Both the position numbers and the translations under genes were made by a program. From positions 59,921-123,920 of the forward strand of contig JACRPN010000013.1 of NCBI GenBank assembly GCA_016223145.1: a stretch of 64,000 nucleotides of DNA, written 5' to 3'. Below, in pieces: positions 35,958-38,451 of this stretch (position 1 is the stretch's first letter; every line of letters begins with the position of its first letter). This DNA comes from Armatimonadota bacterium (GTDB lineage: Bacteria; Armatimonadota; Fimbriimonadia; Fimbriimonadales; Fimbriimonadaceae). The notes beneath the pieces are model-generated. The model was not told the origin of the DNA. It did no database searches and worked only from the letters and a program-made list of their open reading frames with translations.

Positions 35958-36581
35958 ATGTCCGAGCCTCGAGGCTGGTACTCGCGCGGATATCTTCCAC
36001 ATATCGACGCGGGCCCGGTGCCCCAATTTATTACCTGGCGACTCAAGGATTCTATCCCGCACGCCCTCTTGCTTAGCTGGGAGGAAGAAATGGGGCGTCT
36101 CCCCAAAGAGGAAGCTGCCCGTCAAATGCAATCTCGTATTGAGAGTTACCTCGACGAGGGCCACGGGTCCGCTACCCTCAAGCTTCCAGGAGCCGCCAAG
36201 ATCGTTCAAGATGCCCTTCTCTACTATCACGAGCTCCATTACACGCTTCACGCGTGGGTGGTGATGCCCACGCACGTTCACGTCCTGATCACCCCGTTTG
36301 AAGGCCGCGACTTCCGCGACATTCTCAGGCCTCTGAAGGGATATTGCTCTCGTGAGATCCACAAGCACTACGGCGGCCACGGAGCTTTCTGGCAGAGGGA
36401 CTTCTTCGATCGGATGATCCGAGATGAGGAGCACTTCGGCAAGATCGTTGCCTACATTGAGTGGAATCCAGTCAAGGCCGGGCTCTGCTCCGATCCCTCC
36501 CGCTTCCCCTATTCCTCGGCGAACCCCACGGCGATAGGGCGCGTTTTGGCAAAGTCCGCAGAGAAGCGGTCGGGAAGATGA
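35958..36581 (+). CDS. REP-associated tyrosine transposase (RAYT, Y1_Tnp family)
   Basis: 207 residues. The HUH motif is intact (MPTHVHVLI, His106 and His108) and the likely catalytic Tyr is Tyr129 in RPLKGYCSREI. FWQRDFFDRMIRDEEHF (145-160 region) and IVAYIEWNPVKAGLC are typical of RAYTs. Such single-stranded DNA endonucleases are thought to mobilise REP palindromes. Here the gene lies between two REP doublets in inverted orientation (35859-35915 and 36636-36691), the usual REPtron layout. The gene looks intact and stands alone on the plus strand. Confidence 0.95.
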   Translation: MSEPRGWYSRGYLPHIDAGPVPQFITWRLKDSIPHALLLSWEEEMGRLPKEEAARQMQSRIESYLDEGHGSATLKLPGAAKIVQDALLYYHELHYTLHAWVVMPTHVHVLITPFEGRDFRDILRPLKGYCSREIHKHYGGHGAFWQRDFFDRMIRDEEHFGKIVAYIEWNPVKAGLCSDPSRFPYSSANPTAIGRVLAKSAEKRSGR

Positions 36582-36736: not shown

Positions 36737-38152
36737 TCAATACCGATAATGATCCGGTTTGTATGGGCCGTTGGGGTCCACCGAGATGTAGCTTGCCTGA
36801 TCTGGACGGAGCTGGGTCAGCTTGGAATCCAGCTTCTTGAGCTGGAGCCGCGCCACCTTCTCGTCCAGGATCTTTGGCAGCACATAGACGCCCGGCGCGT
36901 ACTCGCCGGCCTTGGTCCAAAGCTCGATCTGCGCCATCACCTGGTTGGTGAAGCTCGAGCTCATCACATAGCTGGGGTGGCCCGTTCCGCAACCGAGGTT
37001 GACCAGGCGTCCTTCCGCAAGAAGCGTGATCCGCTTCCCGTCAGGAAACACGATGTGGTCCACCTGCGGCTTGATGTTCTCCCACTTGTAGCCCTTGAGC
37101 GAGGCAACGTCGATCTCGCTGTCGAAGTGGCCGATGTTGCAGACGATGGCCTCGTCCTTCATCGCCTTCATGTGCTCGTGCGTGATCACGTGGTAGTTGC
37201 CGGTCGCCGTCACGAAGATGTCGGCCTTGCTCGCGGCATCCTCCATCGTCACGACCGGGTAACCCTCCATCGCCGCCTGCAGCGCGCAGATCGGATCGAT
37301 TTCGGTCACCCAAACCTGGGCGCTCAGAGCACGCAGCGCCTGGGCGCAGCCTTTGCCCACGTCGCCGTAGCCGCAGACCACCGCGATCTTGCCCGCGATC
37401 ATTACGTCGGTCGCGCGCTTGATGCCGTCCACCAGCGACTCGCGGCATCCGTAAAGGTTGTCGAACTTCGACTTGGTCACCGAGTCGTTGACATTGAAGC
37501 AGGGGAACGGAAGCCGTCCCTCCTTCTGAAGCTGATAAAGGCGCTTCACTCCGGTCGTGGTCTCTTCGCTGATGCCCTTGATCGCGGCCTTGATGCGAGA
37601 GTAGTAGCCGGGTGAAGAGGCCAGGCGCCTCTTGATCGAAGCGTAGAGCGCGGTTTCTTCCTCGTTCGTGGGGTTCTCCACGACGCCGGGATCCTCTTCG
37701 GCTCGGGAACCCAGCAGCACAAGCAAAGTGGCGTCACCGCCGTCGTCGAGAATCATGTTGGGGGTCCCGCCATCGGACCAATCCATGATCCGGTGGGTGT
37801 ACTCCCAATACTCATCCAGGTTCTCGCCTTTGACGGCAAACACCGGGATGCCCTGGTCTGCAATCGCGGCGGCGGCGTGGTCCTGGGTGCTGTAGATGTT
37901 GCAGCTCGCCCAACGCACATCGGCACCGAGCGCCCTCAGGGTCTCGATAAGGACGGCCGTCTGGATCGTCATATGAAGCGAGCCTGCGATGCGCGCGCCC
38001 TTGAGCGGCTGCGCCTTGGCGAACTCGTCGCGAATGGCAATGAGTCCGGGCATTTCCTTCTCGGCGATCGCGATCTCTTTGCGGCCCCATTCGGCAAGGC
38101 CAAGGTCGGCGACATGAAAGTCGGTCTGAATTGGGTTGTTGACGGTGTGCAT
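36737..38152 (-). CDS. ahcY: Adenosylhomocysteinase
   Basis: 471 residues from ATG 38150-38152 with CAAGGAGC upstream; a longer frame to 38272 is riboswitch leader. AhcY hydrolyses S-adenosylhomocysteine to adenosine and homocysteine with bound NAD, in the cytosol. Motifs are the start [60 protein letters not shown], the NAD-binding [10 protein letters not shown] near 275, and the C-terminal [10 protein letters not shown]. Expression is controlled by an SAH riboswitch and terminator at 38263-38377, an ON switch matching the enzyme's substrate. Confidence 0.99.
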
Positions 38153-38199
38153 GTTGCTCCTTGAATTGTCGGTCCTGGACGTCTTGTTCTTCTCGCTGC

Positions 38200-38262: not shown

Positions 38263-38301
38263 AAAAAAACAAAACGCCCGCAAGACCTTTTCTTGCGAGC
38301 G
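38263..38301 (-). terminator. Riboswitch-controlled terminator of ahcY
   Basis: On the minus strand CGCTCGCAAGA (38291-38301), loop of five, TCTTGCGGGCG (38275-38285), then TTTTGTTTTTTT. The 5' arm overlaps or abuts the 3' strand of the riboswitch pseudoknot, giving a mechanism for SAH-dependent readthrough. Confidence 0.88.
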
Positions 38302-38377
38302 CCGTTGCCTACGAAAAAGCTAACGCTTCTCCCCGCCGAGCCTGGCCCCGAAACCCGGGCTTGCAACGCTCCTCGGC
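38297..38377 (-). promoter_or_regulatory. SAH riboswitch
   Basis: On the minus strand the aptamer reads GCCGAGGAGCGTTGCAAG (P1 5' strand GCCGAG at 38372-38377), a P2 hairpin CCCG...CGGG, then CCAGGCTCGGC closing P1 (38335-38340). An optional hairpin GAAGC-GTTA-GCTT follows, and CAACGGCGCTC (38297-38308) can pair with GAGCGTTGC (38363-38371) as the pseudoknot. CCGAGGAGCG..GCAA and CAGGCTCGG are the diagnostic conserved blocks of this class. It precedes ahcY, the expected gene. Confidence 0.92.
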
Positions 38378-38451
38378 AGTGATGATATTATGACACAAGT
38401 CTTGCTGGACCCCAGCAGTTATGCCAGGGTCCAAAGGGTGGCTCCAAGGTC

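Follow-up and report, generated by a model that had tools for sequence, protein, structure and literature searches.

Known SAH Riboswitches and the Control of ahcY

In the original description of the SAH riboswitch by Wang and colleagues in 2008, SAH binding was reportedly proposed to activate expression, and some members of the class are said to use terminators. SAH riboswitches controlling ahcY and metF were described in beta- and gamma-proteobacteria (PMC4239095), and the control of ahcY by this class is also cited elsewhere (PMC2864571). The fluoride riboswitch is an established case of a strand passing from a pseudoknot into a terminator (PMC13273304). Our literature search found no paper on the SAH riboswitch in Armatimonadetes, or on riboswitches in Fimbriimonas.

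The DNA analysed here is a stretch of 64,000 nucleotides, hereafter called the window, from a genome placed in the Armatimonadota, adjoining the Fimbriimonadaceae. The original prediction proposed a SAH riboswitch with a built-in terminator upstream of ahcY at 38263-38377, coordinates that proved correct to within a few bases. This element is very probably a SAH riboswitch (RF01057) whose expression platform is transcriptional, and it would act as a SAH-induced ON switch before ahcY; SAH binding and SAH-dependent readthrough are what we infer.

A Full-Length SAH Aptamer Upstream of ahcY

The downstream gene, expected to encode an enzyme that uses SAH, is indeed that of adenosylhomocysteinase, which clears S-adenosylhomocysteine (SAH), a waste product. 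The gene and the parts of the aptamer are the following:

36737-38152, minus strand: ahcY, encoding an adenosylhomocysteinase of 471 amino acids, with its ATG at 38152 (TIGR00936, 605.5 bits; PF05221 and PF00670)
38290-38380, minus strand: full-length SAH riboswitch aptamer (RF01057; cmscan, 56.1 bits, sole match in the genome)
38363-38371, minus strand: 5' strand of the P4 pseudoknot, GAGCGUUGC, read from the sequence, whose partner is 38308-38297
38297-38308, minus strand: 3' strand of the P4 pseudoknot, GCAACGGCGCUC, of which the final 7 nt double as the 5' base of the terminator (RF01057 alignment, coordinates and energies)

The covariance search, which had been set beforehand as a test of the assignment, gave a clear match to the Rfam SAH riboswitch model on the minus strand at 38380-38290. 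Its score stands well above the curated gathering cut-off of 37 bits, its E-value of 1.2e-7 refers to the whole window against all Rfam families, and the alignment covers the model from end to end (positions 1-78 of 78). An artefact or a chance match was rejected on the basis of this E-value and of the lack of any RF01057 match across 14 control genomes. The SAM/SAH riboswitch model, RF01727, has no match within the window.

All the conserved blocks that had been recognised beforehand on the minus strand are present, namely CCGAGGAGCGUUGCAA from 38376, then CCAGGCUCGG, with CAACGGCGCUC as the P4 partner. The pairing of the GAGCG-UGC block with the 3' GC-CGGCGCUC block by which P4 is defined in this class is found here in the complementarity of 38371-38363 to 38308-38297, and the 3' strand of P4 is conserved among the leaders of relatives. 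The element also lies where members of the class are expected, upstream of a SAM-cycle gene, ahcY being directly downstream. The ahcY leader element thus belongs to a known riboswitch class, and the comparative evidence for its platform, presented below, is good.

A candidate promoter lies just before the aptamer:

38387-38395, minus strand: extended -10 element TGtCATAAT, conserved in the leaders of the phylum

Since P1 starts about 10 nt downstream of this element, transcription likely starts just before P1. A hexamer that matches TATAAT at 5 or all 6 positions, and whose end lies 9-17 nt before the conserved GAGG, was found in 38 of the 46 Armatimonadota leaders, against a mean of 2.4 for shuffled sequences, and in none of these 46 leaders when the same test was shifted 20 nt further upstream.

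Regarding the surroundings of the locus, an inverted repeat, TGGACCC...GGGTCCA (38406-38433), separates the upstream gene from the ahcY promoter; it may mark where the upstream transcript ends, or serve as a protein site. A gene for a di-haem oxidoreductase, a putative peroxidase (PF06537; 38452-39639, minus strand), sits between EF-Tu and ahcY, and EF-Tu is followed by a 17-pair terminator-like hairpin (39705-39669). Just downstream of ahcY, a REP-associated tyrosine transposase is encoded on the plus strand (35958-36581; NF047646, 94.2 bits).

A Terminator Sharing the Pseudoknot Strand

A strong terminator had been predicted directly after the aptamer, with a 5' arm that abuts or overlaps the P4 partner. 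A terminator scan located at this place a 13-pair hairpin with the tail TTGTTTTTTT, which is the strongest terminator of the intergenic region, and the two elements do more than abut, as they overlap by 7 nt. The features concerned are:

38273-38303, minus strand: intrinsic terminator hairpin, GGCGCUCGCAAGA AAAGG UCUUGCGGGCGUU (terminator scan; -20.0 kcal/mol)
38263-38272, minus strand: U tract of the terminator, UUGUUUUUUU (terminator scan)
38157-38162, minus strand: Shine-Dalgarno sequence AAGGAG of ahcY, read from the sequence, about 110 nt past the terminator and outside the switch

The sequence common to the 5' arm of the terminator and the 3' strand of P4 is GGCGCUC (38303-38297), so that the aptamer and the terminator are mutually exclusive, as expected of an ON switch in which the terminator cannot coexist with the ligand-bound aptamer. 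Folding of the leader, suggested as a check along with the original prediction, is in line with this arrangement: the energy of the hairpin falls from -20.0 to -5.5 kcal/mol once the P4 strand is withheld, and only a GCAAGA-UCUUGC hairpin is then left, apart from the U tract. In pseudoknot-free folding, which cannot weigh P4 and its ligand against the terminator, the whole leader adopts the terminator form at minimum energy, and it is more stable than shuffled sequence (z -2.79).

Such a terminator could also attenuate transcription constitutively, or end the upstream transcript, standing beside an aptamer that no longer responds to SAH; indeed, folding predicts greater stability for the terminator than for the aptamer when the pseudoknot is left out. 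This explanation is nevertheless extremely unlikely, in view of a full-length aptamer in which every strongly conserved block is intact, of a terminator that shares exactly the P4 strand, and of the separate promoter found between the upstream gene and the aptamer.

According to the favoured reading, that of a SAH-induced ON switch, RNA polymerase would start immediately before P1. At low SAH, GGCGCUC, from the 3' strand of P4, would be drawn into the 13-pair terminator, so that transcription would end at the U tract without reaching ahcY. Once SAH has accumulated, the bound aptamer would keep GGCGCUC in the P4 pseudoknot, leaving a 6-pair hairpin distanced from the U tract by the unpaired GGGCGUU, and the polymerase would read through this weakened hairpin into ahcY, whose product hydrolyses SAH.

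Conservation of the Terminator Platform

The arrangement is shared within the phylum. A U-tract hairpin (7 or more pairs, with its start inside the P4 strand and 5 or more U among the next 10 nt) was detected in 40 of the 46 distinct Armatimonadota leaders, where 0.5 was expected from shuffled downstream sequence, and the same test was positive for 5 of the 67 leaders of other bacteria, mostly Proteobacteria. In addition to these 40, two Armatimonadota leaders (L021 and L035) were judged by eye to have P4-strand terminators with interrupted stems. Three others (L011, L023, and L032) are devoid of a U tract and must therefore function in some other way. A few betaproteobacterial SAH leaders (L057, L087, and L088) also have a hairpin that resembles a terminator and involves the P4 strand; the one in L088 is perfect.

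The arms of the terminator covary as well. Beyond the P4 strand, five positions pair with their own arm in 198 of 205 cases, whereas swapping the right arms between loci gives a mean of 134 pairs and a maximum of 153, none of the 2000 permutations reaching 198. This test leans toward pairing, the right arm being placed by whole-stem complementarity, a bias from which the shuffle control of the hairpin count is free. The competition between pseudoknot and terminator proposed in the original prediction is thus visible in the sequence, both at this locus and across the phylum.

These comparisons also bear on the possibility that the SAH aptamer exerts mainly translational control, the downstream hairpin being ordinary or accidental. 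Such control would be in keeping with the Proteobacteria loci examined, most of which have no visible terminator, and several of which have the P4 strand close to the ribosome-binding site. At the ahcY leader, however, it is judged very unlikely because the ribosome site lies about 110 nt past the hairpin, and the conservation of the P4-strand terminator in the phylum, with its covariation, also argues against it.

Linkage of the Riboswitch to One AhcY Type

RF01057 was found in 25 of the 61 genomes of the window's family and order, and in 69 of the 291 Armatimonadota genomes sampled, nearly all within two families. Its presence follows the type of AhcY: every phylum genome whose AhcY shares about 73% identity or more with that of the window carries the riboswitch (67 of 67), and among the 291 genomes it is absent from those whose AhcY is 60-67% or below about 50% identical. 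Reciprocally, this AhcY type is scored in 67 of the 69 genomes that carry the riboswitch, and the remaining two (G054 and G135) are incomplete; the G054 contig encodes the start of this AhcY type (83% over residues 5-93), and the riboswitch of G135 is near a contig end. Besides, in all 42 loci of relatives that were detected with only the RNA model (L002-L043), ahcY is adjacent. The G054 locus (L009) is the lone riboswitch-ahcY pair in another family of the order; its contig, 3.7 kb long, comes from a MAG of 73% completeness and may represent contamination.

Among named genomes, members of the Armatimonadota, one of them a Fimbriimonadaceae MAG, encode the AhcY proteins closest to that of the window, at 80-82% identity. 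Within the genus of the window, the other two species have a distant AhcY, about 40% identical over the whole protein, and lack RF01057; no second ahcY was found in the window genome. In an AhcY tree obtained from a short search, the Fimbriimonadaceae sequences, one divergent row excepted, form a group that sits among rows from Proteobacteria and elsewhere. As the support of this tree is uneven, the pattern may reflect either transfer or differential loss, and no transfer donor is claimed from such a short search. The chances are about even that a lineage-wide transcriptional SAH riboswitch moves in the Armatimonadota with one ahcY type, which would have taken the place of the resident ahcY in many species, including some of one and the same genus, the regulator and the enzyme being inherited or transferred as a cassette.

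Comparison with Known Systems

The host range of the SAH riboswitch is wider than the cited papers report, reaching a little-studied phylum: the SAH riboswitches of PMC4239095 are from Proteobacteria only, whereas the host here belongs to the Armatimonadota. The locus thus provides a well-supported SAH riboswitch outside the group in which its regulons were described, and, being strictly tied to a single type of AhcY, it illustrates neatly how a regulator can be inherited or transferred along with its target gene.

With the validated RF01057 class (PMC4239095), it shares the sequence and structure of the aptamer (P1, P2, and the P4 pseudoknot), the target ahcY, and the expected ON logic. It differs from the proteobacterial relatives examined by its platform, a terminator on the P4 strand that is missing in most of them, and whose unusual uniformity in the phylum offers some forty natural variants for studying the exchange of a pseudoknot strand into a terminator. 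The transcriptional form of the fluoride riboswitch (RF01734) has another aptamer and another ligand, and is not a relative. Finally, the SAM/SAH riboswitch (RF01727) is likewise a small pseudoknotted RNA that binds SAH, but its structure is unrelated and it controls metK in Rhodobacterales (PMC2864571, PMC4239095).
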